64,000 bases of DNA from Stentor roeselii. Its lineage: Eukaryota; Ciliophora; Heterotrichea; Heterotrichida; Stentoridae. Positions 46,101-64,000 of this stretch are shown here, in pieces (within the stretch, counting starts at the first letter, position 1; every line of letters starts with the position of its first letter). Location of the stretch: assembly GCA_006503475.1 (NCBI GenBank), contig RSEH01000079.1:103241-167240 (forward strand). Direction: 5' to 3'. Below the pieces are notes generated by a model. That model saw nothing but the letters and a program-made list of their open reading frames with translations, did not search any database and had not been told where the DNA came from. The position numbers and the translations under genes were made by a program.

Positions 46101-48995
46101 TTTTTGGACTTCTGGGTCGGTTTTGATTTCTTCGAGATCGCCTCGGACCATTTTAAATGCGCAACGACTGAAGAAGAACTCGATGCTGTCTTTGGAGGTT
46201 TCTGGCCATTGCTTTTTGTAGAAGGTTGTTTCGATTAGGGCTTTGATTGTGATTTTCCAGCCCCAGTAGTTGACTGAACCGTCGCTGTGGAATGTGAAGT
46301 GAAGGGATGGGTTTAATACTTCGACTGGCTCTTTAGGAAATGATTCACCCTCCCATCTCGCAAATTTATTCGTTGCAGCTTCATCCAGCCAGAGTTCAAG
46401 ATAATCACATCCATTTTCAGTTTTGCACTGAGGATCAAAACTAAGTGTATACTTAATAGCTCCAGGAACAGTAATCGAATGTTTTAAATTCGCGCTATCC
46501 GGGTAGTTATGAGAGCTTTCATAAACCTCTTCAACCGACCCGACCCCTCCAGCTAAAATAGTCTTTCCAGCAGGAATACCCGAGAAAAGCGCTGAAATAT
46601 CACTAATCGCAGGCAAGACTTCACTAATCATCTTCGACGTCAAAGGACTGAGAACCAATGCATTTAAAAGTTCATCTAAAATAGTTCCAACAAGACTATT
46701 CACCAATTTCTGAATAATTTCATCACTCGGTTTTAATCTAAGCAAATCTTGTGACTCTTTCAAAGTATTCAGGGCAGTTTCAAGGAAATTTGAGGTGTAG
46801 TCTGAAATCACTTCCAAATGTTTTTCTTCGAATTTTTCTTTCCCTGCCTGGGAAAACAAAGCGGCTTGAGCACTGCTGAGAAGTTTCAAAGCAGAGACTT
46901 TTACATTTTCTCCTCTGATAATAGCACAAGTGACTTTATAGGCCTTTTGTATTAAATTCCTGTAAAACCTTTTAACCTGTGCAATGTGGTCATCGTTGAT
47001 GTACTTCAAGATAGGAAAAAGCTTATCAGCTCTTGCGATGTTACTGAATATTTTTGCTTCAAGTTCTTCAAAGACTTGCAGTTCATGTTTTTTTTCATCT
47101 CTTTCAAGGGCTTCATTGATATAAGTTAGTTTAACTGAAGGGTCTTTATAAAAGATTTCAAAGCAGGAACTAAGAACTTTCATTGCCTCGTCAGTGAGTT
47201 CAGCATTTTTCGAGTTCTGGATAAATGCGACTGTTTGATTCAATATTTTTTTCTTTGTTTCTTCTTCGAGACTCTCGTCTTCAGTCTGTTCAGCAAGAAG
47301 AATAGAAAACATGACCAGTCGATGAAGAGATGAAATCGCTGAAACAAGAGAAGCCTCAGAAATGACTGAAGTTTCAGATGAAAAGTGCAAATCGTAAAGG
47401 TCTTGTTGAAGCTCTTGAATAGATTTGAAAGACTTTTTAGTTAACTGAAAGGAATAAGAAGGAGTTTTTGACTGGAACTTGTAATTCCGACTTTGAAACA
47501 GGTACTCGACGTATAGCAGCCCATCTGATAGTTTCTTTAAAATGAATGAAACAGTCTCACCAACTGGCTTTTCAAGGTATTCATCTGAAGGTGACTCTGC
47601 TTTTAAAAGGTTTTCAAAGGCTGAAGTACTTGGCTTGTTTATAAGAAAGTTTGAAGCGATCTCTTCAGGGTACTCCAGATGTTTATTTAAAGCGAATTCA
47701 TTGTCTTTGTTTATATGCAGATAAATTTTATACTTCTCTTGAGTGAATTTTAAAGGAGGGTTCGGCTGTTTTTCCCCATTTTTAAAGAAAGTCACTGTTT
47801 TCGCACTTGAGTCGACGAAAACTCCGATTTTATCACCTGCAGCCCAAGGAGTCATTTTAAAGCTTTCGTCTGACTTAGAGTAAACCGAGGAATTAGACCC
47901 AAAAGCGAAAGTCGTATAAGAAGAGTTGCTCCAAGCTGATTTTTCATTAAACTCCGCAGCGGCGACTCCAAAATGGCAGTTCTCATTGGTCTGAACTACT
48001 AAAATTTCAACATAAACACTGATATTCTCAATCACTGATTCCAAATAAACCACTCCATCTTCATTATCAATTGCGCCCTTGACCTTCTCTTCTTTGATCT
48101 CCAAAGCGTCACCTTTAACCTTGCTTCCCCATTTGAAAAGACTATGCATCAAAGGGACAGAGTCGAAACTTTTCAACAAAGGAAACAAAAGATTTTTCAG
48201 TTCTTTGCTCAACTCCTTCATATGAATCAGTCTTCTTCCAAACATCATGAAACTCGAAATACTTCCAGAGGACAAAGCCAGCTTAAACAACGGGAGAAGA
48301 CTGACAAGACTTCCAGCTTCTGACAAGCTTCTGATCTTTCCACAGACAACTGCATCGAAAAAGTCAGAAATCTTTTCAAAACTTTCAATTAAAGTACTAT
48401 CAGAAGTCGCTAGACTTAAAGGAACCGAATCACTTAAAGCCAAATTCGCATCATTTAAGATGAACTCAAATAACATAGGATTAACTCCAGCAACACATTC
48501 AATTAAATTCAGCAAAGTACTTAAACCAAACTTGATTGCAGCCTTCGCCGCTGTTGGAAGTTCTGAGGTAGGCCCGAGGTTATCTGACGATTTTTTGTTT
48601 TTCAAGTCGTCTACTCTAAGAATGGCTTCAAAAACTCTGCAAAATGCCTGAAGTCTTTTAGTGATCTCTGTGGATGCGAGGTCTACCTCAGTAGTTTGAG
48701 AAATGCTCTGAATCAGAGATTTGACTGCTGCCTCGTTCCGGTCTCTTGCGGCGAAGGAGTCGTATTGGCTGAATAAGAGTGATTCTTCGCTGAGGTCTGA
48801 TGAGGCTGCTTTGGCTTTTGCAGCTTCTGGACCGACTTTATACTTTCCAAGGTCGGATCTTATCGATAGTTTCGCTGAACTGAAGACAACACTTGTGTCG
48901 TGCAACAACTCGATGTCCTGGTTCAATGACTTTAATCGCTCGGTGAAGGACGCTTCGCAGGCTCGTGATACGATTTCACTAGTACTGTTTCCCAT
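37149..48995 (-). CDS. Giant HECT-type E3 ubiquitin ligase
   Basis: One uninterrupted frame of 3948 residues. The HECT domain takes ~3590-3948, with catalytic C3905 in 'SHTCFFTLDLPAYTT' and the N-lobe start 'IYKVNYRGEGSIDAGGPYNE'. Upstream, three SPRY/B30.2-like beta domains are visible (~312-425, 3030-3200, 3250-3370; e.g. 'GDKIGVFVDSSAKTVTFFKN'). Two CUB/ZZEF1-type beta domains share 'HSDGSVNYWG(W/Y)K' (~822-922 and 2722-2818). The rest is mostly helical repeats. The start MGNSTS fits an N-myristoylation signal. Substrate is unknown; giant HECT ligases with SPRY domains occur widely in protists. No intron is required, though stopless 15-nt introns cannot be excluded. A fragment of this gene is found inverted at 60552-61141. 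Confidence 0.94.
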   Translation of the reverse strand: MGNSTSEIVSRACEASFTERLKSLNQDIELLHDTSVVFSSAKLSIRSDLGKYKVGPEAAKAKAASSDLSEESLLFSQYDSFAARDRNEAAVKSLIQSISQTTEVDLASTEITKRLQAFCRVFEAILRVDDLKNKKSSDNLGPTSELPTAAKAAIKFGLSTLLNLIECVAGVNPMLFEFILNDANLALSDSVPLSLATSDSTLIESFEKISDFFDAVVCGKIRSLSEAGSLVSLLPLFKLALSSGSISSFMMFGRRLIHMKELSKELKNLLFPLLKSFDSVPLMHSLFKWGSKVKGDALEIKEEKVKGAIDNEDGVVYLESVIENISVYVEILVVQTNENCHFGVAAAEFNEKSAWSNSSYTTFAFGSNSSVYSKSDESFKMTPWAAGDKIGVFVDSSAKTVTFFKNGEKQPNPPLKFTQEKYKIYLHINKDNEFALNKHLEYPEEIASNFLINKPSTSAFENLLKAESPSDEYLEKPVGETVSFILKKLSDGLLYVEYLFQSRNYKFQSKTPSYSFQLTKKSFKSIQELQQDLYDLHFSSETSVISEASLVSAISSLHRLVMFSILLAEQTEDESLEEETKKKILNQTVAFIQNSKNAELTDEAMKVLSSCFEIFYKDPSVKLTYINEALERDEKKHELQVFEELEAKIFSNIARADKLFPILKYINDDHIAQVKRFYRNLIQKAYKVTCAIIRGENVKVSALKLLSSAQAALFSQAGKEKFEEKHLEVISDYTSNFLETALNTLKESQDLLRLKPSDEIIQKLVNSLVGTILDELLNALVLSPLTSKMISEVLPAISDISALFSGIPAGKTILAGGVGSVEEVYESSHNYPDSANLKHSITVPGAIKYTLSFDPQCKTENGCDYLELWLDEAATNKFARWEGESFPKEPVEVLNPSLHFTFHSDGSVNYWGWKITIKALIETTFYKKQWPETSKDSIEFFFSRCAFKMVRGDLEEIKTDPEVQKALNNPLLSYGISDHSLVYVQSLPKIEDSIQKLSLQILRPAKYLVSPSLQKFSFLPNYEIGLKEYLDYYHSDHPKVFSSNHFFNDFVEGTEDLLAAWTALRKKSGITGNHLNIGGNDLDQAERAIFAVYSSFFEIGETVKGILTSSFEAGATVKSFVKEACNIRYWAQKQKQKLFDAGKTEVTYKGISDDIVKKCAILIGADYKSSLNHIGISKVMKNLVQNIAKGQRSHLKLASKWKNVKDALKSAKKLTSLVSIKNKSTKAENDDLKEFSRVAELVKSFLENPAPVEQLVEALNKRRSRAIVRALGFLSISKLISYSSSEHETFIVKSFSESLTVEGEKLDYSDSISGVDPLLSKSVQTGFFLVIRSIQEDLISSSFCTFNYELFSHFITAIEAITWKYRGEDLHLFMSQPLTALLKTLLKWAKGDFQQEQLQGKFLVEKCVTRIGLLTEEAVPEGKTKILLEKVEGQPTTFLVLDFGGSELPITQFVITEETREDLEEAVPEFQLGGIAKRVYVYRNEADPTKEYLTGINEDLTPKFEKYQTLLGQPDVEEIKRLAKNKENLMRNSWKLFKQMFYTLAGSWKGNHESNHLNVQDMFLKVLFSEMRSSFDLKEGNLDDFNVDELASGAVWINKGRILREFPKSEMEVWMESFANDSQIELAELLNTYRSYIDPLVIGSVSKPENELLAEQSNLYKGEDGKIQFTQFLSLVKETFTQDESLEAIKNSEENKNIWKEHKNPEKIIDYNDFQAILKDLQDHYIPSSENLFEKYLDLFKNHGILVSAEHLKGEFPAELLLESGELGFYQLLTRLKTNSKFSNIFSEISSFYLNHPDLPESSKQVDENQKATNDYITALLLVIYGGFTSSYLCKSLSGAEYVKVLLSYLHNSKSIQISTLSSRILAKVLPSQHSPATLETIWKDLHSNHENLAQFLLNSIGKSMTEDQRSSYEARNLLLSLVQESRWADHVYFEIQKAQVSSIEALNAGNLLDCVQIGSILVMTSNFAIGRKPFTLSVVSLKDSPFSWGIVKNVDAEGKFSVYSLIDDNSVKVEASKILSIENAVKGNLFSSLQEKGPGIVDHLFSIWTALNDSFNKPLKTQGEGFVIFSVVYKCLQNVIVTAFKDAFEIFEINPEKISKVLADLIELKSFRESFTNSDFIAAKNMARDKVKALMENEKGMSIEEVNEQANLLDEDSKKAFNELQENGVSPLFALKCVKSGIKQIELVGNYSESVQSSLLYKLSLIDEAGITVEDPDGQAEIFQNNFYHLIISDSHNSFKSLEFDLSSRIFDILKTFTDEVTIRLGIECTSIDGNLASGIKIGSLDLPFTISSFIGDQPTILRITANSNGEVNITNESNSEVSRHFNRSVFTGFSIGKIQLYLSEGSLISLVMLEVHNKAINSNFQGKLEKAIKSDMTERFVKIRSRAPDSFSSRLNILGISPEQIELCKAKTGSISEAVHFSLENFSPASSLKLSETGCITELKIFDTVELVPPDFEIVKVFENFNECDFLVPGRKILAFKKGSNENSVLSVSIGEAPGLETLGELTPSGDARVVSIYSKVGKATQKEPGINSIIFIKCASVNNVPVPRNFSVLTDKEGKAINIAGKSEKPYYLFIALNKTFEYLGIPVSRLESILPKFTTFGLTESVKSSVSDKKEKPADFSSYSLTSLYSLLFAFEHNILVRQSESLLSTSLQKSHIYFESLLKLVPISKLFLYLDSPFVKSLSLSNESLIKSLAFESISALVCTLVPKSSSGRVLKSVQIESTHPYDNNMDVDDVISIPGASGLRVEFDPQCYTESGCDPLRFYENTGRTGEIRCFSGQGESVWTAFEVPGDTVYTYFHSDGSVNYWGYKFEVIPVGTSGVVQKTNSAVALEILAKIANDEKISGLVDSDQFLFPLFAYLMGSSNIEEKLMVLDMFKVSARRLTSSTGKEIIRCLGESAEALYKTTSNDKTSHNVLQALIQVLFECKKAGIQVIKANWFQDLADLLSDMHGLGEKESTLDMYLFDIFKGASAAKLELNFESEHPYQVKTFSKEISVDGASSLALEFSKDSKAEKNHTAFFSRDSQKPLNVLTEANTVNVKGKFEFKGPDIELSNDGLRVTRTSSNGWGAALLGVKLSSGCTSFTYFIENDGASDYLYIGFVEAEEHSAVELNACFNSDLGKKLFTWKKNGDMHRHLSNNNVSAFGTGDTIKMTVNFEQSNIICYKNGVEVYNFNDITGPLIPLLSFGGSNQFVQLKSIETANETSIESKRVNISGDTVHIWFPVNAGYFNIYNWDLSTDEKTSISKDNLTATNLTEESSFLPTNLKLEGGQHYFEVQSKKGIDFGVGVCPSSHLESKSWDHESVSIFWADSPSLSIQEKESIGLLLDLDLNKLTLFKNRVAVTSITEKIFEGIFSFFAVLKSKDSEVTIKNEEPTWLDILSLDSDRVSADFGYKVKVSPVFKGRGQGAMDNFLKSSSQEFRDSWNTYKSSLTGFFRSGAVDELVMFIDQFSASKGKDPTTLTQEDLTLKKTDLVYYPELEKVEEGNVFKLYQILQDFNKRVQNSLFLFDLNFKAQLTDLQRFLIGSRSFVFFDIKNKLLKAVLDKTKNDARTEINIDRPKAARHRNKKEVDREGLFSIFGQIFRAMSAVGNTSLRNSERIYKVNYRGEGSIDAGGPYNESMSNMCDELMSSFLRLLVPTSNNTNNMGEYRDAWIINPSAKSQTELEMFKFLGKLMGAAIRTQNNLNLSLPPIFWKSLLRERLTVKDLKTMDLCTVTILEILKNPESNELTSENFSMVYDEKFTTKNSAGEEVEVVPGGKEIQVTFENSKEFSALALENRLNESNKIYEVIREGLSAVVPVDYLNLMSFKQFETLVCGAPDVDIDILKENTDYEGCAVSDQHIVYFWEVLKAFAPRERTLFLKFVWGRTKLPSGKDWRHMKVTRLNPSGPVNNYMPISHTCFFTLDLPAYTTKEAMEQKLLYAITHCTAIDLDGRAGDGWEDND

Positions 48996-51866
48996 TTATA
49001 ATCACCATTGGAATTTAGCCCTTTAGTAGAGATTTCTTTGGGAATGGTTTGGTGGAGGAGGAGTGGAAGATGGGTTGATGTTTGTGGAATTAGGGATTTA
49101 TTAGGGGTTTTTTATTTTGTTGGAGAATTTTAGGGTTTTTTAGGGAATGGGTTGAATTTTTTTGATTTTGGTAAAGGTTAGTTCGAGTTGGAAAATTATA
49201 AGATTATAATAATTAATGGATTGATAGAGAATGGTTAGTTTGGAGTATTTTATAATTTGAAACTGGGAGTAATGACTTCAGTTTAGATATTTGGGTGATA
49301 AATTCAAGTTGGATTCATCAAGCTTTAAAAGTTAATTCAATATATTGATCAAGTATTAGATATTTTGTTTTATGAGCATAGAATGATTATAGATTAGAAA
49401 AATTTTTTAATTATAAGTAATCTTTTACATTTGGCCATATTCTCTTACATTAGATGTAAGATGCATTTATGTTCAGAAAATTTATCAACGTTGTAATTCT
49501 GATGGCAATGTAAAAATGCTACTGGATCATTTAACAGAAGAAAAAGGATGTTTAATGTTCAGAAGGTTGCCAAATTTGTTAGAGTCTAGATAGTTGCATT
49601 CAGTACTATCATTACTTTATTTAGGTGAGGATAGACAATGTCTTCGATGAGCGTCTTATATGATGAATTATGATTTGTTTATTGTACTTTCTTTATGACT
49701 TAGCCTTCGAATGCTACTGCCTAAAATGTCTAGTTTCAGGCTAAACATAAGCCATTCATAGCCCAAAGATGCCAAAAATATTGAAACTCATTTTCTCATA
49801 AAATAGAATATATTGAGCCATACTCTCTGAAATACCTAAACAACTCAATGTGTAAATTGAGATTTTCAATAAAAACTGCTAATATTTTTCCAGTAACAAG
49901 AAAATTTAATTCCCTTATATTCTCTCTATGGTTATTCTACAGGGCTTCAAAATAAAACTCTTCCTCTTCTTCACATCATCAAATCATCTAATCCCTCACA
50001 TCGTTTCTTGAAATCTGATACAGGGATGCATTGAATTTGTTTAAAACTTTCAACTTTTTAATCACACTTCCTACTAATTCCTGACTATTTTCAAAGTAAT
50101 CAATATTTCAATCCTCGCAATCTGCGATTTCTTAAGCTAATGTTTAATTTCTTTCCAGTTGAACGTGGCAACTTAGGCCTGATTGGAGATGACTCTAACA
50201 TGTGATTTTCTGTTTTTCCAGAAAGGGCATCTCTCGAACCGATGAACTGCTCGGGCTTGATTTTCGCTTAATTTGGTGAACCTTGTCTCGAACTTTACAC
50301 TTATGTTGAAGATTTCAAGAAATAATGAAATTGGAAGCTGTTGAAATGATCAAAGACAAATCGCATTCACTTTTAATCGAAATAAAAACAAAACTCTTTT
50401 CTCTGATTTCTTAGATGTAGAAGTCTTTCAGTCATTTTAAAAGAAAGCTTTTGTGAAATCATTGAAGGCTGAATGCTTTTCAGGTTATTAAAAGTTCTTG
50501 AATTTTGAGAATTTTAACGATTTCTTTTATTTCATATGTCTCGGGTGGTAAGTTCTCATAAAATTTTGAAGGAATTGTGAAAAGACTTGCATTGTTCTCA
50601 ATTATGAGCTGGCCCGGGCCTTGATATCTGCTGGCACGTTTAATGGGTAGATCCGCAGTTTTAAAAACACTATCTGGCATATCATGGTTACTCTTTGTTT
50701 CAATTTTTATCATTTCATATAATTAACTTTTACAAATCAAAGTTCAGACAGCACCATCAAATTTCCCTTAATTACTATGAAAACGGCCCAACAAGGCAAA
50801 GTTTCGCCCTTTTTTAATCATTTTTACTTAAATTTTAGAAGCAGTTCAAAACTTTTAAATTTTTTAAGATTTTTTTAAAACAAAAATTTTTTGAGATGTT
50901 TTAGAGCTTCTGGGTCAAAGTTCTGAGGAAAGTCGAAATTTTTGATAAAAATTTTTTTTGTAGTGGTAGTTTAAGTCGCTTCTTTTTATGAGCAACTCCA
51001 GAAGCATGATGCTTGCAAGGTGTCAAGGGCTCAATCTTGCCAAAGAACTGAGCATCAGTAACTTATTGGTGAATTTTTTTGTAATTTAAAGGAATGGTTA
51101 GATTTCATTTATCTAAAAAGTCTACTGATACGATCAGGAGTTACCTTTTTATCTTCGATTTGTAGATGATTGATTTTTTTAGCAAATTTTTAGAGTTTTG
51201 ATTTCAATCTCCCAGAACTATATGTGTTTCATTTCTCTCTTTTTAGATAATTTGAAAGGTTTTAAAGGATTTTTACCGAAGAGAAAGGGGTTAGAAACCT
51301 TTGAATGTTTGTTTTCAATACTTTTAAGTACTGGTTAATAGGCAGCTGGTTTTTACTTAAGCATTCGAATCTAAGAGAAATCTAGTATTTTCGAATCAAT
51401 TTCCCGTGTTTCAACTTTCGCTGGAATCATTAAAATTACACTGTGAAGGTAATACTTCGAAGGTTTAAAGCGTTTTAATTCTTATTTCGATTCTATATAA
51501 TCAAAGAAATTGTTAAAAAAATAGAAGATCAAGTGATTCTCGTAGTTTTTTTTAGTGTTTTACAGAATTGATGGATTGTGGCTTACTCATTTTAGAATAT
51601 TGACTGTATCGGTATAGAGATCTATCGAAATCGATTGATCTTAAAGTTTTAAGTTATTTCAGATTCATAGATGAATGAATTTAAAGACTTGATATCTGAT
51701 TCAATCGATATGCCAAAAGACTACCATTTATTTTATTATAAAGGGCTCTTATATCTATAAACTAACAAAAAACAGAGATTCATTGATACACAAGCATAAA
51801 AATATAAGTTAAGTTAAGTTAAATTTAGATCCGCTTGCATCTCTGCAGAGTGAGAATAATACCAAT
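48996..51866. other. 2.9 kb AT-rich spacer with unidentified coding-like patches
   Basis: The first 200 bases upstream of the HECT gene are strongly T/G-rich on the + strand. At 50480-50713 (-) a 77-codon frame ('GPGQLIIENNASLFTIPSKF') and at about 50100-50300 (-) a second coding-like patch ('KPEQFIGSRDALSGKTENHM') with stops on either side may be pieces of one decayed gene. I cannot name it. A short AAGTT tandem lies near 51810. No RNA gene recognised. Confidence 0.45.
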
Positions 51867-53131
51867 TCATTGAGTTGAGGGTCTCCTTAAGTACTCAGGC
51901 CGCTCTCCATAGTGAATGAAGCTGTACCCGATGTACCAAATGTTGATGGCAGCATTCAAATCCCTATTCCATTGAGCTTTACAGTGTTTACACTGAAGCC
52001 ATTGATGGAGGAGTTGATTTGTGCCTTTTTCTCTCCTGTACTTTTCATTGATACCATTCGTACTTTTGCAGCTACAGCAGAGCTTACTTGTGCAGTATTC
52101 ATCCACCAAGAAAAGTGAATACCCAGCTCTTTTCAGCAATCTTCTGATTCCAATAGTTTTCGCAGGTAGAGTTCTTCGTTGGCAACGACCTTTACATGGA
52201 CATATGAGATGTACTTCTCAAGATCAACAGTCTTGTGATTGTACTCTCTGAGTTTTCGCTCAAGATTGTCTATGTTGACGAATCCTGTACCGTCATATCC
52301 TTGCGCTGGCTGAGCTGATATGAAACTCTTTCTTTTGGATGAAAAGAAAGAGGATTTTTTCTTTCTTTTCCTATCACGCTTGCTGTAGAAGAACCTTATT
52401 AGTTCACTGTGGCTTTCACTTGGATCCTTGATGAACAACTCTTCTGATAGGCAAGGGGTTACTGCAGTGAAGATATTATTCACCCCTGGGTCAATTCCTA
52501 CAATTGTTCTTCGAGAGAACATATATCGCTCATTAATCGACATAGTATTAATGTAGCGATCATTTTCTTGAGAAGAGGCCTTAGTGTGCTTCTTCTCGAA
52601 GATGATGGAACAACCTTATCCATCAGTGGTCATAAAGTGCGAGAATTCATAGCCTTTTTTCTTGAAGGCTTTGTGGTCGAGTTTGAAATAACACTTCCAC
52701 TTTTTCGAAGGTGGATTAGACTTTAAATCTTCAGCGTTTTCTCCATGCGTGAAGTTAATTCCTTCACCTTGACCAAATTTTTGATCTAACATCAGATTGA
52801 AGTTTAGAACCTGATGCAAATAGTCCTCTCTAGAGATATAGTATCTCTGTTGACGTAGAATTTCGCTCTCAACTTTAAAAAATTTGGCATCTCTTGGAAT
52901 GAGGAGATTTTCCAACCCTGTAGTGTCCAATTGGAATGCTTTTGGAATTGCACTTGTCCTAATTGGAAACACATTTGTTTTATAGTTCCATCCTTCTTCC
53001 TTCCTAGATAGGAAGTTATGGAGAGCATACTCTTTAGGTGCTCCATTGGACAGAGTTCCATTGCCTTCTCAAGGCTTTAATTCTTGAACTTAGGAACTAT
53101 ATTCCTCCAGTGCTTTTGGAAGAATTTCGGA
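51867..53131 (-). pseudogene. Fanzor (eukaryotic TnpB-like RNA-guided nuclease) remnant A
   Basis: Conceptual reading in family order: an N-terminal helical part ('FPKFFQKHWRNIV'), 'FPIRTSAIPKAFQLDTTGLE', 'KKKGYEFSHFMTTDG', RuvC-I 'TIVGIDPGVNNIFTAV' (Asp codon 52490-52492), RuvC-II 'LVDEYCTSKLCCSC' (Glu 52098-52100), a four-Cys zinc ribbon (CCSC...CKHC) and RuvC-III 'WNRDLNAAINI' (Asp 51960-51962), ending 'GERPEYLRR'. This is the TnpB/Fanzor signature: transposon-encoded nucleases that use a guide RNA from the element end. All three catalytic acids remain, but the frame is broken by TAA after TDG (about 52613-52615), TAA near 53074, a frameshift near 52136 and another near 52990. The 16-nt or 15-nt introns possible there do not repair it. 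Confidence 0.88.
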
Positions 53132-53212
53132 AAATGATATTCGATATCAATTCAATTTCCAGTTAAAATAGAGTCTTGAGTGTAAAGAGTTTTACTTTTA
53201 AACTCTCTTTTG

Positions 53213-53257
53213 TAAGGATAAACTTCCTACGTTACTTATATAGGAAGTTTATCCTTA
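53213..53257. repeat. 17-bp perfect inverted repeat beside Fanzor A
   Basis: Left arm 53213-53229 (TAAGGATAAACTTCCTA) and right arm 53241-53257 are perfect reverse complements around an 11-nt spacer. A smaller 7-bp inverted repeat (AGAGTTT/AAACTCT) lies just before it at about 53186-53205. It sits ~80 bp beyond the 5' end of the Fanzor remnant, so it could mark the element's end; it could also be an unrelated hairpin. Confidence 0.75.
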
Positions 53258-53449
53258 AGTACTGGATTAGATTGTTTTTAAAGTCTGTCTGTAGTTGACT
53301 ACCTCACTGTTCAAGATTGAACTTATTCCTGTAACAATGATTCCTAAAGAGTGATCATAAAACCTGATCAATGTCAGGTAACAACCAATAAGTATTGCTC
53401 CAAACTGAAACTCCTGTCCTCAGATTTCAAAATAATGACCCTCATGGGA

Positions 53450-54170
53450 TATTCGATAGAATTTCTGATAATTTACTCGTTTCAGGCATATTATCTATCA
53501 CGCCGTGAGTCAAAATAAGCAAAACATGATAAAATTCAAGAGGATTCACACTTTCTGCCATCTGGCGAAGTTTCTTGATCAAGGAGCGATGTGCTTAGGG
53601 ACTGAAGTCGTGTTAGAAGCAGGCCTTTCTAGTAAAGTTTGAAGATTCCTTTGATGCTGTTGACTGAAGGGCTTGAGTCGTCGTTGTTTGAAGCGAAACA
53701 ATGATTAACTTTTTCGTCTGACTCTGGAATGCCCCAAAGCTGTAAACTGTGAAAGTCTTTGACTGTTGTAAGCTTGAAGAAGACTTCCTACTTCCCAGAT
53801 GGCTTTTGATAAGGATTTTGATGACTTTTGGATATGTATGCAAGGAGTTACGGTTCTTTATGTTTAGGTTGCTTCCTATGAAGTAAATCGCCTCTGTGAA
53901 TGAAAGTTGGATACCTGCAGAAATGTAGTCGATGAAAGTGAACATTTTAGAGTTTCGAAGGTTTTTACTAAGAATTTCCTGCTGGTTTACCTTTTTTTGA
54001 AGTTAGATCGAATCGGTTTTCGAGGTGATGAGCTGCTAGGGTGTTAATTTGACTGAAGGATAAATTGTGCTTACCGATTCGATTCTAGTTGAAGCATTCT
54101 ACAAGGATTGGCTTTTCTGCAGTTCTGAGTTCTTCCTGGTCTTTTCAAATGACATCCACTTTGGGTTCAG
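53450..54170 (-). pseudogene. Copine remnant (C2B end plus vWA domain)
   Basis: Read across several frames on the minus strand: 'LNPKWMSFEKT' and 'PILVECFN*NRIGKHNL' (end of a C2 domain), then 'MFTFIDYISAGIQLSFTEAI' and 'FIGSN' (start of the copine vWA domain; the MIDAS Asp before FIGSN is replaced by Tyr), 'NSLHTYP', 'LWGIPESDEKVNHCFA', 'LIKKLRQMAESVNPLEFYHV' and 'LLILTHGVIDNMPETS'. Copines are calcium-dependent phospholipid-binding proteins. At least two in-frame stops and several frameshifts show this is dead. It lies between Fanzor A and the duplicated SAYSD1 segment; no parent copy is in the window. Confidence 0.85.
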
Positions 54171-54689
54171 TGTTTTTTTTTGCTTCTAAGGATTCCTCCC
54201 ATCGATTCCCTGGAAAACCTTTAAAGAGGAGTTAGGGAAGGACCTCTTTACCAGTGCGTTTTTTTATCAAGTTTAATTCCATGCAATTCATTCAGAGAGG
54301 GATTACCACTGCTTGCATACTAATCAGCTCGCACAAAAAGCTGACCTTCAGCATCAAGTTTCATGTTTAATTATTAAAACATGCTATTTTCACTTGAAAA
54401 CCTGACGGCCTGAGCTGGGAAAAGAAGAATATAGAAATTTTGGATGAAACAATTAAAATTATATTAGTCTTTGTTTGATATCGCGACTTCCCAGAAACTT
54501 TTCAAATTTAAAAAAAAAAGTGGCGGCTTTTTATAGCTGCCTTTGTAAAGGATATTAGTGTTTGAGAGTAGAAGTTGATTTTGGAAAAATTATGAATTTG
54601 TATGTTTTAGATCTGTATTTAGTCTAGGTTTGAATTTCTAACTAATACGAAAGAAGCTTCATTCCAAATCGCCTTTTCACCTTATAAAA
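54171..54689. other. Spacer with an unidentified coding-like patch
   Basis: A minus-strand patch at about 54250-54365 ('MKLDAEGQLFVRAD', stop, 'YASSGNPSLNELHGI') looks coding but has stops; it could be more of the copine relic or another fragment. The remainder up to 54689 is AT-rich with nothing recognised. Confidence 0.4.
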
Positions 54690-55430
54690 AAAACTATGAT
54701 ACAGATTCAACTTAATCCATAAATATCGAGCACCGCCAGTGTTTCAATTCGGATCGATTAAAGTGCAGATGAACTAAGAATTACTGAAAATATTTCTTAA
54801 GCTAATTAAACCGTTGTTCAATCGAGCTAGTGATCAAATTCTTTGAAATGACTCAATCTGCTTAAATCATCACAGAAGGTTTTTGTACATAAGCAGTCTT
54901 TAAATACCTCAATCCCTATAAATCAGATTTATCATAAATTTATCAATATTTACTACAATCTTCATTTCTTTACACTTCAACTTCACATCTCAATCGAAAA
55001 ATTGTCATCTTTTCATTAAAACGGCACTTCTTATGTTTTTTTCCTATCCACAAGGGCAAGGTTTATATACAAGTCTCCTATTCCTAACCAAAAAGCTAGG
55101 ATTAACAATATACTTCTTTAAATTACTTCCATGTTTGATCATCGAAGCAACATCAAACTCACCAGCAAGTTTTTGCATCCAGGATTGAAAACACTATAAG
55201 CACTCTCTCCTTTCTATGTCCAAGGTTGCGAAAGATGAACCAAAAGCCAGACCCAACAAAGAACAATTCTCCGAATCCAAATTTAACAGCACTACAAAAG
55301 GCAACAATCCAACAAACAATAAAAGCAGTCATCTTGATCTAATAATAAACCCTTGAAATTCCCCTTATTTATTAGAAACTACCGTCAACTTGTGCTATAT
55401 GAACATCAAGGTGGACCATTGTATTCGAAT
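54690..55430 (-). repeat. Duplicate of the SAYSD1 / GAPDH 3'-end segment
   Basis: Collinear with about 61153-61890: the 3' flank, the whole SAYSvFN/SEC-C gene and the last ~18 codons of GAPDH, ending abruptly at about 55427. The gene copy (roughly 55015-55345) is disabled by two single-base losses, near 55225 and in the A-run near 55172. The outer parts are more diverged than the gene. Breakpoints adjoin unrelated sequence on the left and the inverted lectin-family relic on the right. Confidence 0.9.
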
Positions 55431-55477
55431 ATAGACACTCGAAAAATTTGATTTAATTCTTTAAAAAAATCAAAGTC

Positions 55478-57412
55478 CTGAAAAATAAGATGCCTAATAA
55501 GATCTGATTCAAATCGTCTTTCATCTCTAATCAATAAAAAACTGTTGAATGATGTAAATGATACTAATGCACCATTCCCATATTAAGAAAAATCAGGTAA
55601 AACAGAGAATTGCACCGATGTTAAAGATGCTTCCAAAATCCTCTTATAGTATTTCTCAGGGTTTATTCCAAGACTTTCTCCTAATTTAATCATGACTTTT
55701 CCAGTAAAAGCTCAATGTCTTAATTTTATTTCAACTAAATCCTCTATATCACAAAATTTTCTAAACAAAATTCTTTCAATTTGAGAGTTGAGCCAAATAA
55801 AAAACCGAAGACCAAGCAAAAGTAGTCGATGAGGATTTCTAGAAAATCTAAAAGGAAATAATTTCTAGAAAAGAAATTCCTCTGAAAAGCTTCAAGACTC
55901 AAAATTTCATCACTTTTTCCACTGCTGGCTCAAACATTAGAAGCCAGATCCTTAAACTCAAGAGCTTTTTCATTGAATCAACATTCACAGCTTTTCCGTT
56001 TTTGTACTTCTGGTATAATTTTCTGATACGGGCTTGTAGTCAAGACGACAAACTTGAAGTAAAATGGACTCTTAATAAATATCAGGACTTATTTCAAAGT
56101 TATTGCTGTCAATTTTTCAGTAACCATATTCGCAGAAACAGTTCTTGTCCTTTGGGAAACTATTTTTCTCTCAGTAGTAGAAGCTATCACAAATCAGGAG
56201 GTTTAACTGATACAAAGTTCACAATTTGAAGGGTTTCTACATATGAAAATTCAACTTCAGTTGCAAGTTACATATATATCATTAGGGACTCAGTGAATTT
56301 GCAATCTTCTACATAGTTTTGTTGGGATTGAAGATTATGGAGGGTTTTTGAAATTTAGATTTATGAAGTAAATTTACAACTTCCAGAGAAAATCTTCAAA
56401 TAAAATGCCTTGATCACCTATTATTGGAGGACTTGATTTTTTGTTGAAATACACTTTCATAGGGATATTACTAGGTTTACTTGGTAATTCAGTCAAAGAA
56501 GATAAGGAAAAATATACCCATCTATATCAGAATAAATTGTAAAAAAATATTCTGCCACTTATCAAGTGAGTTCGTATTCATAGTTTGAATCCTATTTTTA
56601 TATTGAAAAGTTAAAATAGTTGAATCCAGAACTACCTACAAGTATTCCTTTAGAAGTAATTTTCCATGAGTCTTCAGTTTCATGAAAAAAAAAACCATTG
56701 AAAATTTATGAGAAAGAATCAGATCCTAACTCATTAAAATCGATACACTCTTGAAATAAAACCCTCGATTTTGTACAAAGATAAGATAAGCATCATTAAT
56801 GTATGGCCAAAAGCTTGATTCAGTACCTGATGCCAAGTTGACATAATTTTTATTCTGAGTAACTCTTTTAATTCAATCCAACTTCAATTCAATAACATGG
56901 GGTCAGGAATAACACATTCATGATCAACAACAATAGTAAAACTAGGCCAATCTCTTAAGTAGAAGTTTTAGTAATGAGTAAAACCAGTCTCCCAGAAGAA
57001 ACATCTGAAGTGCCATGGACCATGCCAATCTTTGCAAATGCGGGTCAGGGTTGCAGTAAATAAAAAGTCCTAAACAGACAGCGCATCTAAAACTTTACAT
57101 AACTAGAAGTTCCCCATGCTTTACAGCGGCTAGCACATTGGCTGTCACATGCATTTCTTTATATTCATATTTATTAAAGTAAACTAAATGGTTGTATGTC
57201 CAGTCACATCCAGAATGATACACATTGTAATTAATGTTAATATCATCAAAGTTTGACTGGTAATAGTTCCGAATAGTAAATGAGTAGATAAACCCATTAT
57301 TTTAGGTAATAAATAGGTTTGAAAGCCTATATAATAATTATTTTCGATATCTTAAATAATAGCTTGAGAGCATAGTGTCAGTGTACATCCCAGAGCCAGC
57401 CGTACTAGTTTC
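55478..57412 (-). pseudogene. Third lectin-family relic, middle part
   Basis: Aligns with about 2755-4805 of copy 1 in the same orientation (modules 2 to 4 of the protein, e.g. around 'GF' strands and Cys-rich blocks), but is riddled with stops and small indels. The N-terminal quarter is absent. At its right end it meets the C-terminal part in the opposite orientation. Confidence 0.85.
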
Positions 57413-58720
57413 TATTGAAGTATATATCAAGCCTTCATCTTTCCCTCACTTATTCAATTTATTGTTCAGAATTTCCAATATACCCGATCAAAAAAACCTA
57501 CATCTTAGCATGCAACATTTCTTCATTCAACCCAATTCTAAACCAAAGCCAAACTTGCAAAAACTACTCGAAAGCCATACAAAAGGCTGGAAAAATACCG
57601 AAAACCGTACTTTATGTGAAGATCCAAACTGCATCAACTATCTTATAAAAGTAAATCTTGTTATCATGTGATTTCAGCTTTGAGCTAGTCTACCAACATA
57701 TTTTAAATGTGAATGAAAACTATTTTACAACACTCAAAAGAAGCCTTGCATAAAATGCATGGGCATATGCGATTAATATTTTAGTCAAAAAGTGTACTTA
57801 GTGCAAACCACACACTACTTTAAATGAAGATTCCATATGTCAATGCGACAAAGGATATGATGAAGACTCTGAGTTAAGTGCAAGTCTTTTGTATCAGTGA
57901 TTAAATTGAATTATCATAGTAAAGTGATTCTTTACTGAAAATTTTTCAAGGACTTAAAAATTCTGACCTACTTGTAAGAGTTAATAAAAAACGAATGTAG
58001 TCCAGCCTTAATAAAATCGGTATCCATATGAGATTGACTTGGGTTATAATAAGTAAAACAGAAAGAATGAATTTTTAGTTTTGTTAAGGATTTGATTTAT
58101 AGAAGAACTCAATGTTGAGAATGAAGACTATTCAAGCAAGTTTTGATTGATGTGAGTGAACATATTTGAATATTTCTTTACCCTTGATTAAGAAATACAC
58201 GAAAATTCCATATGTGTGCTCAGTTGTTTTAAGAGGATCTTTTTAACTTTAGACCAACTGTCTTTACCATTACTTAAACAGTATCAAGCTTTTAATCTAC
58301 ACACTTTTAATAGCATGACTTCCGATGAGGTACAAATGAATTTCTTTAAAAGTATTCAATAGTGTCAGGAATTCCCTTAATTTTTGATTTTGAAAGGTTC
58401 AAATTTAACAAATTCAGTATAACTTTTTTGAAATAACTTCCTATTTGATATGGACCTCTTCAGGAGTTATTATAACAGTGTTTTTTTTAGTATCTTTTTC
58501 AATATTTTAGCCTTAGTGCATAAACTTTACATGAAATCATTCAGAGTCTTAAAAAAAGAAATTAAAGTACTTAAAATTGAAAGCTTATCTCAGGTACTTG
58601 CTTTCAACATTTTTAAGGTTTTCTGAGGTATTTATTTCGATTTCTTATTTTGAATACCAAGAAATGCTGCAAATTTTTAACTTTGTTGCTTGTGCAGAGA
58701 CTATTGTTAACTTTAAAATA
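57412..58720 (+). pseudogene. Third lectin-family relic, C-terminal part, inverted
   Basis: Aligns on the + strand with the part of copy 1 from about 2745 down to 1395: the end of module 4, the last Cys-rich blocks ('MQHFFIQPN', 'TLCEDPNCIN') and the first membrane spans. Short open stretches near 57415-57670 survive; the rest is heavily decayed. Together with 55478-57412 it shows a single gene split by inversion, both halves abutting at the same gene coordinate. Confidence 0.85.
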
Positions 58721-58859
58721 TCATAAACCAATGATATTTAGTTTTATAATAAAATCCACTGAATGAAAAGAATAATCAACAAAATAACTATAAATAACTA
58801 TCATTAATTACTGATTATATTGATATATTAAGTTAATTAATCTTGATGCTCACCATAGA

Positions 58860-59809
58860 TTCGCTCTGACCTTTGCGTGTTGATGAATCGATTAGATTCA
58901 TCTTTCGCCCATGTAAGGTTCTATAGCAACAAACCTTTTAGATGAGTCGATTAAGTTCGCCTTTCCAGCTCATCAAAGTAAATCTCAGCTCTCTTCCCCT
59001 TTTGTGCTCTCGAAGGCCCTTGAATTTTTCTTTGATCTCAGCGTCGCTCTTAGTGGCCTTAGAACCAGGAATTTTATTATTCCTTCTTTTTCTTATTGCT
59101 TGTTGGTTCTTTGAAGCTATGTCTTTTCTAACGTGTATGATTGAGCAACTGACCCCGTCAGTTACAATCAATCATATGGTTGAATGTGTAGGCTTTTCCC
59201 GGAGAGAGCTTTTGGTCGGACTGATGCGACTCATTCTCAAAGGACTTGAAGCACTTATCGCTTGCTTTGAAGAGGCTACTCCAAAGATAGTCCTTGAACG
59301 AACAGCAGTAGTTGCTCCAAAGTGACTTTGGTCCTTTTTGTTCAAAAAGGAATCTTCTAGGAGCTTTTTTGTCAGAATCTCAGTTTCGATTCTGATACTG
59401 CATGGAGTCAGATGTGTCCTTTGAGGAATTACATTTGGGAGTTTGCATTCCTCCTCATTTTCCTCTATTTCTTTCATCATTCTAACCATGCACCTCAAAT
59501 ACTCTACTGGCCTCAATTTCAAGTCTTCGACCAGAGAGCCATTGATACCATTCTTAGGTAGTGCTACTGCTTTTATTCTTTTTATGAATGGATGGTATGT
59601 GCCACGCCTCACAAACCACCCGTTTTTTTGTAGCCTGCTTCATAACCAGTATCATCAAATACAAATCTCTCCTGCTCATCATAAGAGATGAATAATATGA
59701 GCAGTTTAGAGAGCAAGTAGGCATTAAATACAATTGAATTTGTAATAATGACTACCCTATTTTGTTTTTTCTTCGGTTTATTTTTTATAGTATTGCTCTC
59801 TCGACTCAA
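58860..59809 (-). pseudogene. Fanzor remnant B, different subfamily, 3'-truncated
   Basis: Three minus-strand blocks read in family order: an N-terminal Lys-rich part (59809-59609, 'KNKPKKKQNRVVIITNS'), then 59612-~59340 ('LPNVIPQRTHLTPCSIRIET'), then a shifted frame with 'SLFKASDKCFKSF' and 'KAYTFNHMI', and finally 59171-58938 ('VTDGVSCSIIHVRKDI'). The TDGVS motif and order match Fanzor nucleases and fragment A. Breaks: a one-base loss near 59610, one in the A-run near 59335, and a 4-bp GATT tandem duplication near 59178. A degraded RuvC-I may follow ('KRFVAIEPYMGE', Glu for Asp); RuvC-II, zinc ribbon and RuvC-III are missing. Little identity to A outside the core motifs, so these are two insertions, not one duplicated. 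Confidence 0.82.
58882..58902. repeat. Short hairpin at the truncated end of Fanzor B
   Basis: GATGAATC and GATTCATC form an 8-bp perfect stem around a 5-nt loop. A related direct copy (GATGAGTCGATTAAG) follows about 55 bp later. Small enough to be chance; noted because it sits at the element's broken 3' end. Confidence 0.5.
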
Positions 59810-60551
59810 TTTGAGTGAATTTTACTCAGGCATCATATCATCAGTGCATTGATCCAATAGAATCTCTCGATCTTTATTATATCAAATTTTTTTTTATTTT
59901 TTTCTAAAAGTTTTGGAATCACTCCAGACTTGCCCAGTTTTGTTTGCTTGTTTGATTTTCGAATTATTCTTATTGTTGATAATTATTATAATGTAAATGA
60001 TAGATTAATTCAAAAATTCATTTCATATATGGAGATAAAGCGGGCATTTTGTAAATTATGTTATCAAATGATCAATTAAATAGCTCTGAATAAGTAATCT
60101 TAGGTTTTTTTAAAAATTATCAAGAAACTTTAGGATTTATATGCATAAAATTCAAAAAGTATCACTTTTGATATTTTCCGGGTTTCATTATGAAAAAAAT
60201 TTGGATGAATTTGAAATTTTTAAGAGATTGTTAACTTTAAGAGATATTCTAGTATTTAAAGCAGCGTTCAATTAACTATCAAAAAACTTAAACTATCCAA
60301 ATGTATTTACAGTCTTTTTGAATTTATTTTACTTTTGAAAAAGCTGGAAAGTTTATTTCAAATGAAATTCAAAATTTTTCATAAACCAAAAAGTTCCAGG
60401 TCCAGGTTTATCCATATCAAAGCATAAATGCAATTGCTTAATATTTTCTTATCCACTTTGAACCGGTTATCCTCATGAATAATTCTCATCCAATCAATTT
60501 TCCTTCGCAACATCAATCAAAGCCACGAAATCCTTTTCTCCTTTTGCGATT
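59810..60551. other. AT-rich spacer
   Basis: AT-rich, many stops in all frames, between Fanzor B and the inverted HECT fragment. Nothing recognised. Confidence 0.5.
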
Positions 60552-61141
60552 ATGAGTCAATCCTTATAATGACGAGTAACTTCGCCATTCGCCGAAAATC
60601 TTTTACCCTGTCAGTCATCTCATTGAAAAATTCACCGTTCTCCTGGGCACTCGTAAAAAACGTAGACGCTGAAGGGAAATTTTCAGTTTCTTCGTTAATC
60701 ATGACAACTCAGTCAAAGCCTGTTAAATCTTTTCAATTGAAAACACAGTCAAAGGCAACTTTTTTCAAGTCTTCAGGAAAAGGACTGAAGATTGTGGATC
60801 ACTTGTTTTCTATTTGGACTGCTTTAAATGATAGCTTGAATAAATCTCTTGAGACTCAAGGAGAAGGCCTTGTAGTTTTTTTAATAGTTTATAAATGTTT
60901 GATAATTGTTATTGTAACTTGCTTTAAATGATGCTCAAAAGATTTTTGAAATAAATCCTGAAAAATTTTTAATGTTTTAGATGATTCGGTTGAATTAAAA
61001 TCGTTTGAGAAAGGTAAAACAACTCAGATTTTATTGCTGCAAAAACTTTTTAGGGTAAGATTTTGATAGAAAATGAAAAGAGCCTGAGTATTGAAGAAGT
61101 TTATTAGCAGGCTAACTTTGGGTAATGATTCAAAAAAGACC
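60552..61141 (+). pseudogene. Inverted fragment of the HECT ligase gene
   Basis: Matches the minus-strand HECT gene at about 42530-43115, but reads on the + strand. Clear collinear pieces are 'MTSNFAIRRKSFTLSV', 'NSPFSWALVKNVDAEGKFSV', 'IVDHLFSIWTALNDSLNK' and 'ETQGEGLVVF', then decayed 'ENEKSLSIEEV'. Frameshifts and stops follow near 60710 and 60930. The fragment starts and stops inside the parent exon, so it is a DNA-level duplication of coding sequence, not a gene. Confidence 0.92.
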
Positions 61142-61444
61142 TAATTAAACAAACTATGATACAATTCAACTTAATCCATAAAATATGAAGAATTACAGTG
61201 TTCCAATTCGCATTTATTAAAGTACAGATCAACTAAGAGTTACTTAAAATAAATCCTCGTCTAATTTAACCTTTTTCAATCGAACTAATATCAAATTTTT
61301 TGAAAATAACTCAATCGGTTTAAAACATCACAAAATATTCCTTGCACATATACAGTCTTTAAATACCTCAATCCCAATAATCATATTCCACATAAACTTA
61401 TAAATATTTACCCCAATCTCATTACCTTATACTTAAACTTCACA

Positions 61445-61801
61445 TTAATCCGAAAAATTGTCCTCTTTTTCATGTAAACAGCACTTCTTATGTTTTTTTC
61501 CTGATCCACAAGGGCAAGGTTTATTTGCAAGTCTCCTATTCCTAACCAAAAAGCTAGGATTAACAATATCCTGGTTCGAATTCCTTCCATGTTTGATCAT
61601 CGAAGCAGCATCAAACTCGCCAGCAAGTTTTTTACATCCAGGATTAAAAACACTATAAGCACTCTCTCCTTTCCTCTTTCCCAAGTTTCTAAATATAAAC
61701 CAAAATCCAGACCCAATAAAGAACAATTCTCCAAATCCAAATTTAACAGCAGTCCAAAAGGCAAAAATCCAGCAAACAATAAAAGCAGCCATTTTCATCA
61801 A
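61445..61801 (-). CDS. SAYSD1: SAYSvFN-domain protein with C-terminal SEC-C zinc motif
   Basis: Encodes 118 residues. It has an N-terminal hydrophobic span (~5-37), then the SAYSvFN signature 'GESAYSVFNPGCKKLAGEFD' (~45-65) and a C-terminal SEC-C motif 'CPCGSGKKHKKCC' (~96-108). SAYSD1 in animals is an ER membrane protein that senses stalled translocation; SEC-C is a small zinc-binding element best known from SecA. The combination is unusual as far as I know. Two alternative inner Mets (residues 2 and 4) exist. It lies 30 nt downstream of GAPDH on the same strand. A dead duplicate is at 54690-55430. Confidence 0.85.
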   Translation of the reverse strand: MMKMAAFIVCWIFAFWTAVKFGFGELFFIGSGFWFIFRNLGKRKGESAYSVFNPGCKKLAGEFDAASMIKHGRNSNQDIVNPSFLVRNRRLANKPCPCGSGKKHKKCCLHEKEDNFSD

Positions 61802-61831
61802 ATAATAAACCCTTTAAATTCACCTAATTAA

Positions 61832-63197
<1,366 letters not shown>

Positions 63198-64000
63198 ATG
63201 CATTCAGAGAAGAAAGGTCCTTCAGTTCATTCTCTGATCGACTTACTCCGAATCCCTCCAGATGAGCGAAAGTCTTCAGAAATAGATTCAATCTGCCGTC
63301 AGACAAGCAACTTAAAATTCTTTCAAGACCTAACCGAAAAAGAAGAGTCTTCAAAACTCCACCAAGAATGTTGCAAAGTCCTATCAGTTGAGTCCTTCGA
63401 TGCAAATCAATACGTGTGTCGTAAAGGTGAAGAAGGCCAAGCTTTTTTCTTCATATTAAAAGGAAGTGTGAGTATTTTATCACAAGAGCCTTTCGAAGCA
63501 GAAGAAGAAGAAAATTCTTCAATTCCTGACTCTTGTCAAGAAAAAATTCAAGAAAACGTTGACCCTCTTCGTGAAAAAGAAATCGCAGTGCTTCTTGTCG
63601 GGCAGTCCTTCGGCGAAATGGCCCTGATCAACGACCGGCCGAGGTATTTTTCAGTGAAATGCCTCGAAGCGACTGTTTTAGGCGTTTTGCAAAAGAAAGA
63701 CTATCAAATCATCGCAAAAGTCCATCAAATGCAGATCAATGAAAAAGTCGAGTTCATTCGAAACATGGAAGCTTTTAAGACCTGGACTCGCATTGCAGTA
63801 CAAAAAGTCAGTTATTTCTTTAAAAGCTCTGGATTTAAAAAAGGAAATGTCGTGTATCAAGAAGGTGACCCGCCGAAAGATGTTTTTATTGTCAAAGAAG
63901 GAGAATTTGTTTTCACTCAGAAGTTTTTAATTGACGCAGGTGATAAGAACCCGGATGATGCTTTTGGAAGGCTCAATCGGAGAAGGGCTGAAAGGGTTTT
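63198..64000 (+). CDS. Cyclic-nucleotide-binding-domain protein (partial, runs off window)
   Basis: Open from the ATG at 63198 to the window end, 267 codons seen. The first cNMP-binding domain (~65-185) has 'RKGEEGQAFFFILKGSVSIL' and a phosphate-binding cassette 'FGEMALINDRPRYFSV' with the key E140 and R149, so it should bind nucleotide. An acidic insert of ~30 residues (98-128) lies between its strands. A second domain begins at ~210 ('GFKKGNVVYQEGDPPKDVFI'). The Glu and Arg are as in PKA/PKG regulatory domains; the missing C-terminus decides whether it is a kinase, a CNBD2-like protein or a channel fragment. Divergent from GAPDH. Confidence 0.9.
   Translation, partial: MHSEKKGPSVHSLIDLLRIPPDERKSSEIDSICRQTSNLKFFQDLTEKEESSKLHQECCKVLSVESFDANQYVCRKGEEGQAFFFILKGSVSILSQEPFEAEEEENSSIPDSCQEKIQENVDPLREKEIAVLLVGQSFGEMALINDRPRYFSVKCLEATVLGVLQKKDYQIIAKVHQMQINEKVEFIRNMEAFKTWTRIAVQKVSYFFKSSGFKKGNVVYQEGDPPKDVFIVKEGEFVFTQKFLIDAGDKNPDDAFGRLNRRRAERV

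Follow-up and report, generated by a model that had tools for sequence, protein, structure and literature searches.

A probable Fanzor1 pseudogene in Stentor roeselii and an intact-looking relative in the same assembly

Results

Organization of the relic

The window, the whole stretch of 64,000 nucleotides analyzed here (C504:103241-167240), belongs to an assembly of 44.4 Mb in 522 contigs. At 51867–53131 its minus strand carries the remains of what very probably was a Fanzor1 gene, delimited by motifs, the profile PF07282 and tblastn and distributed over three reading frames. Frame one contains the segment PMEHLK (53032–53049), whose likeness to copies on contigs C401 and C499 was recognized by eye and which places the first frame change at 52976–53031, between PMEHLK and NVFPIR. 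Frame two runs from NVFPIR through TDG and a TAA to the DPG motif (52975 to 52484), continues with VVANEELY and ends at 52166. The second frame change lies at about 52166, in the junction between VVANEELY and PAKTIG (52149–52189), where about 54–57 codons are lost relative to the copy on C461. Frame three (52166 to 51867) comprises PAKTIG, VDEY, the zinc ribbon, NRD and RRPSTQ, followed by the terminal in-frame stop at 51867–51869. Premature TAA codons occupy 53077–53079 and 52616–52618; at the latter position C401 has Val and C499 has Phe. An earlier note, made from the sequence alone, had reported two TAA codons and a pair of frameshifts, all of which could thus be located.

The Asp, Glu and Asp codons and the four-Cys ribbon named in that note are likewise present in order. 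The RuvC-I Asp of GIDPG is encoded at 52490–52492 (DPG triplet, 52484–52492), the RuvC-II Glu of VDEYCTSKLC, in the alternative position, at 52098–52100 and the RuvC-III Asp of NRD at 51960–51962 (whole motif, 51960–51968). The ribbon (CCSC ... CKHC, 51981–52079), which belongs to the PF07282 match, has its CxxC pairs at 52068–52079 and 51981–51992, and the Glu precedes the first of them by six residues. The available passages of PMC10711439 describe as a Fanzor fingerprint the DPG Asp together with an alternatively positioned Glu six residues before the first Cys, and give a spacer of 12–18 between the CxxC pairs. In a pattern test, the right-hand piece of the relic fitted ExxxxxxCxxC, 12–30 residues, CxxC, 4–8 residues, D. 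A continuous RuvC core in one frame was not found, the relic being divided over three frames with two TAA codons and about 54–57 codons absent. As DPG and Glu stand in separate frames and, with the deletion, lie only about 130 codons from each other, the strict pattern of 120–160 residues between them is inapplicable to a single relic protein.

Homology extends back to 52975 by tblastn and to 53049 by eye. No recognizable N-terminal part lies upstream of the relic, and an N-terminal profile run over 48901–64000 yielded nothing at an i-Evalue below 0.3 except a second relic at 59 kb. The unrecognizable N-terminal part, the deletion of about 54–57 codons and this second relic (58904–59606) go beyond the earlier note.

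Genomic surroundings and the second relic

The relic is embedded in a string of decayed copies (50027–58715) with relatives on C494, on C221, at C504:70-78 kb and at 1.4–12.2 kb of the window. Downstream of the relic, 50027–51738 is a decayed copy of a sequence with open frames on C494; upstream, 53409–54364 is the decayed counterpart of a gene that forms a frame of 525 codons at C504:73.6-74.6 kb. The run is located between a frame of 3948 codons, open under the standard code, and a gene judged by eye to be GAPDH-like.

Stentor is a heterotrich with the standard code. Repeats of CCCTAACA were found 254 times in forward and 365 times in reverse orientation in the assembly, versus 0 in a reversed control. 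Among the matches listed, forward repeats lay within the first 75 bases of contigs and reverse repeats at large coordinates, and C40 carries both. Blepharisma has the same telomere repeat but reads UGA as Trp, as described in part of PMC9942806. The repeats and the standard code agree with a heterotrich macronuclear assembly, as the earlier note had proposed.

The second Fanzor1 relic (58904–59606, minus strand) represents the middle part of a gene with internal deletions and shows DNA identities of 85% to C401 and 76% to C461. One of its deletion junctions contains a 5-bp GGCGA microhomology (58905–58909), and in a C401 copy a deletion starts within a few bases of this junction, just past the RuvC-I Asp motif. 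Taken together, the two junctions look like break repair through microhomology. TA-bounded excision as a general cause of the deletions was rejected, one junction of the 59 kb relic not being TA-bounded. On C401 (L044:1-1758) the Fanzor parts are ordered middle, N-terminal, C-terminal, which may reflect tandem copies with deletions or a rearrangement. The degenerate C461 copy (L042:7700-9150, minus strand) has Asn at the third catalytic position (WYRNTNAGINI).

Assignment to Fanzor1

A profile search, suggested as a check by the earlier note, placed a 90-aa piece containing the ribbon above the Pfam cut-off of PF07282 (48.8 versus 26.3 bits; E 8.2e-13). The same piece matched the NCBIfam TnpB model at E 7e-11, under that model's full-length cut-off. 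Among solved structures, PpFz1 of Parasitella parasitica (PDB 9cf0; E 0.0041) and SpuFz1 of Spizellomyces punctatus (PDB 8gkh; E 0.01) were matched; a TnpB structure scored nearly equally (E 0.011).

Within the genome, tblastn with C499 recovered 52166–51873 at E 1.1e-14 and 52975–52457 at E 3.0e-13, the latter alignment running through the TAA. In a tblastn confined to a few loci, the RuvC-I piece matched C401 (E 1.7e-5) and C499 (2.6e-4), and the pieces in the window are collinear with C499, C401 and C461. None of 500 shuffles equaled the score of the right-hand piece against C499 or against C461. The left-hand piece exceeded all 500 shuffles against C461, narrowly (74 versus a maximum of 68), and was not clearly separated against C499, where 14 of 500 attained its score. 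Taken alone, the RuvC-I piece stayed below every Pfam cut-off (OrfB_IS605: 14.4 versus 30.5 bits, E 0.046), and NCBIfam and PHROGs gave no match up to E 1; across the own genome its sole other match was C461 (E 0.34).

The assignment relies on C499, which matched SpuFz1 at E 1.6e-26, PpFz1 at 3.7e-23 and GtFz1 of Guillardia theta (PDB 9cer) at 2.4e-8. These three Fanzor1 proteins were its only PDB matches below E 0.5, and the relic, as a relative of C499, is therefore regarded as a Fanzor1 relic. Its placement in Fanzor1 and not Fanzor2 is provisional and draws on the C499 match and the weak PpFz1 and SpuFz1 matches. The Fanzor identity claimed by the earlier note is borne out by the PF07282 score, by DPG with the alternative Glu and by the match of C499 to solved Fanzor1s. 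The Glu of the GDWE motif in C499 was considered as the catalytic residue and rejected: the solved Fanzor1s lack a Glu at that position, and PMC10711439, in the passages available, places the Glu before the ribbon, which bears out the Glu of the earlier note.

Deletion and decay

The left piece of the relic aligns with C461 residues 93–150 and ends seven residues further, so that it stops near C461 157–160; the right piece takes up the alignment at residue 215 of C461 and residue 510 of C499. Ungapped extension of the left piece gives a loss of 57 residues versus C461. If the Tyr preceding the junction is matched by eye, the loss is 54 versus both C461 and C499, the count against C499 being made by eye throughout, as the left piece by itself failed to align where it belongs in that protein. 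The missing part takes in the GIGDWE/GFGDWE strand, which has a counterpart in SpuFz1, PpFz1 and GtFz1. The statement of the earlier note that all three catalytic acids are intact is thus literally true, but with a RuvC strand deleted the catalytic core is broken. Given the two stops, the two frame changes and the loss of this strand, a working protein cannot be made from the relic.

The earlier note had suggested that the copy died recently. In a crude decay model that started from the 3′ part of C499 (474 codons, 400 runs per step), the share of runs with at most two stops fell from 90% at 0.01 substitutions per site to 12% at 0.05 and 2% at 0.08. The model is compatible with a fairly recent death and suggests it, short of proof. 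Against it count the relic being somewhat shorter than the model sequence and the flanking decayed copies being 70–80% identical to their relatives. A DNA search of the assembly that skipped very common words revealed no other copy of 51867–53131, and amino acid identity to C499 is 28–39%, so that C499 was not a recent donor. Of the idea that an active relative supplied this copy, there stands an intact-looking relative in the assembly; its role as recent source does not.

C499 and its family

A search of the assembly for intact homologues, also envisaged in the earlier note, led to C499 (L003:1-1853), an open frame of 608 codons that is truncated where the contig begins, the 5′ end being absent. 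Judged from its sequence, it looks intact as far as assembled, with the DPG Asp, Glu and NRD Asp as residues 255, 532 and 578. C499 fails the published strict pattern of 120–160 residues from DPG to Glu and fits with widened spacers only. A Glu-Ser-rich, low-complexity insertion lies in its RuvC part just after the DPG motif (L003:800-1130).

The whole assembly was searched with PF07282, C499, C461 and the right end as queries. As lower bounds, this yielded C499, eight further right ends and the two window relics; C401 contributed at least two places and C461 at least one, and fragments occur on both C178 and C257. The right ends are found at contig ends of C499, C249, C268, C60, C130, C230, C319, C394 and C68, nine unrelated sites. 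They are 97–100% alike, with 0–3 mismatches to C499 over the 76–130 bases present. Sequences are common up to GTAATA, 26 bases past the stop codon, and then diverge, TT following in four of the nine; the nine sites place the right end to within a few bases. Between their flanks (up to 4 kb), blastn detected no similarity at E 1e-5. All nine copies end at a contig break. Four of the eight short copies begin at L003 position 1777 or 1778, 76–77 bases from the end, which would be the remainder expected at a repeat if a k-mer assembler had used k=77; the other copies may therefore be longer than they are in the assembly. Near-identical right ends at unrelated sites, each broken at a contig end, suggest a young multicopy family fragmented by assembly.

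When the first 420 bases of C499 served as DNA query for a left end, only C499 itself and the C178 fragment were detected. Nor did an inverted repeat emerge as left end: the reverse complement of the right end occurred, with up to three mismatches, at 55 places versus 41 in the reversed control. Nine of the 55 are the known right ends, and the two inspected among the other 46, on C506 (the sole match with two mismatches) and on C409 (one of 45 with three), lie inside long open frames. A single-protein query for C499 relatives in IMG/VR returned three stretches fitting a pattern, none of which was confirmed. RNA folding at the 3′ ends of three stretches gave no signal (z 0.05, -0.39 and -1.08).

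Discussion

Our results argue strongly that 51867–53131 is a pseudogene of Fanzor1, an RNA-guided DNA nuclease of eukaryotic mobile elements. By analogy with characterized Fanzor1s, the enzyme when alive would have associated with an RNA transcribed from the 3′ end of the element that encoded it, taking a guide sequence from the element flank, and would have cut DNA matching this guide. The relic has kept the conserved residues, but stops, frame changes and loss of the RuvC strand rule out a working protein, and its family persists elsewhere in the genome as C499, with right ends at nine sites.

A working gene hidden by assembly or sequencing error is very improbable. Such an error would need to account for only two stops and two frame changes, and contigs do break at copies of the C499 family, sequence of this kind being hard to assemble here; however, 54–57 codons are gone with homologous sequence on both sides, the N-terminal part is unrecognizable and no near-identical copy was found that could have been mixed in. 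Eliminated sequences can be TA-bounded. We weighed a whole germline (micronuclear) copy, the missing piece of which was lost by programmed DNA elimination at macronucleus formation, and consider it improbable, though the likeliest of the alternatives. The macronuclear type of the assembly, with its telomere repeats, and a TA within the deletion junction at 52 kb speak for it, but a TA says little where the junction is AT-rich, GGCGA and not TA bounds one deletion of the 59 kb relic, and the TAA at 52616 resembles a point change.

That the gene works after all, by means of tiny introns, frameshifting or an altered genetic code, deserves next to no credence. Tiny introns do occur in heterotrichs, mostly of 15 and 16 bp in Blepharisma (as given in part of PMC9942806), but both frame changes need removal of 2 modulo 3, which neither length fits. 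Moreover, the TAA at 52616 replaces a single codon, 54 missing codons are not restorable by a tiny intron, and a changed code is contradicted by the window frame of 3948 codons open under the standard one. Equally negligible is a contaminating prokaryotic TnpB or Cas12 fragment. The ribbon does match TnpB and Cas12f profiles and structures, yet the relic combines DPG with the Glu in the alternative position, its best match is C499, whose solved-structure matches below E 0.5 are three Fanzor1s, and its position between decayed copies of own-genome sequence largely refutes contamination.

With the Fanzor1 pseudogene as the preferred reading, the 52 kb locus itself is ordinary, as a dead Fanzor copy is; the interest lies in the ciliate's live-looking family. 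We tentatively propose that C499, with at least nine insertion sites, represents a multicopy Fanzor1 family that moved recently in a heterotrich somatic genome, the window relics being older lineages that decayed partly by internal deletions following double-strand breaks. If this holds, a live-looking Fanzor family in a ciliate macronucleus would bring an RNA-guided nuclease and programmed DNA elimination together in one cell; heterotrich development clears transposons from the somatic genome by such elimination, and this is the setting of the C499 family. Adjoining GTAATA, nine candidate guide sequences would be available from these right ends.

Ciliate Fanzors may already be contained in a survey across eukaryotes reportedly published in 2023 by Jiang and colleagues. 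Fanzor and ciliate occur together in five papers; a literature search pairing Fanzor with Ciliophora gave no match, and with a heterotrich name only PMC12203969 among the matches listed, where the accessible part deals with Fanzors in passing. The word ciliates is absent from the main texts, as far as available, of PMC10711439, PMC10432273 and PMC3627910, and the seven eukaryote groups given in the consulted part of PMC3627910 do not include them. The family would therefore extend Fanzors to a group not named in these texts.

Comparison with characterized Fanzor1 proteins

SpuFz1, the best solved-structure match of C499, resembles C499 and the relic in the order of RuvC and ribbon, in the Glu just before the ribbon and in NRD. 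In contrast to SpuFz1, the 52 kb relic is broken, and C499 has the Glu-Ser-rich insertion after DPG. SpuFz1 genes possess 30-nt inverted repeats and ghost elements, according to passages of PMC10432273, whereas neither inverted repeats nor a left end were found for the C499 family here. PpFz1, in contrast, has been expressed and its structure solved, and it carries a RuvC insertion domain of its own, to which cyclophilin binds (part of PMC11423790). In GtFz1, the guide RNA and the gene share the stretch that encodes the final 17 aa, as stated in a portion of PMC10432273. With its right end 26 bases past the stop codon, a guide RNA of C499 located there would overlap the gene in the same manner. 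The third catalytic residue of GtFz1 is Asn (excerpts of PMC11423790), which is shared by the C461 copy, whereas both the 52 kb relic and C499 have Asp.
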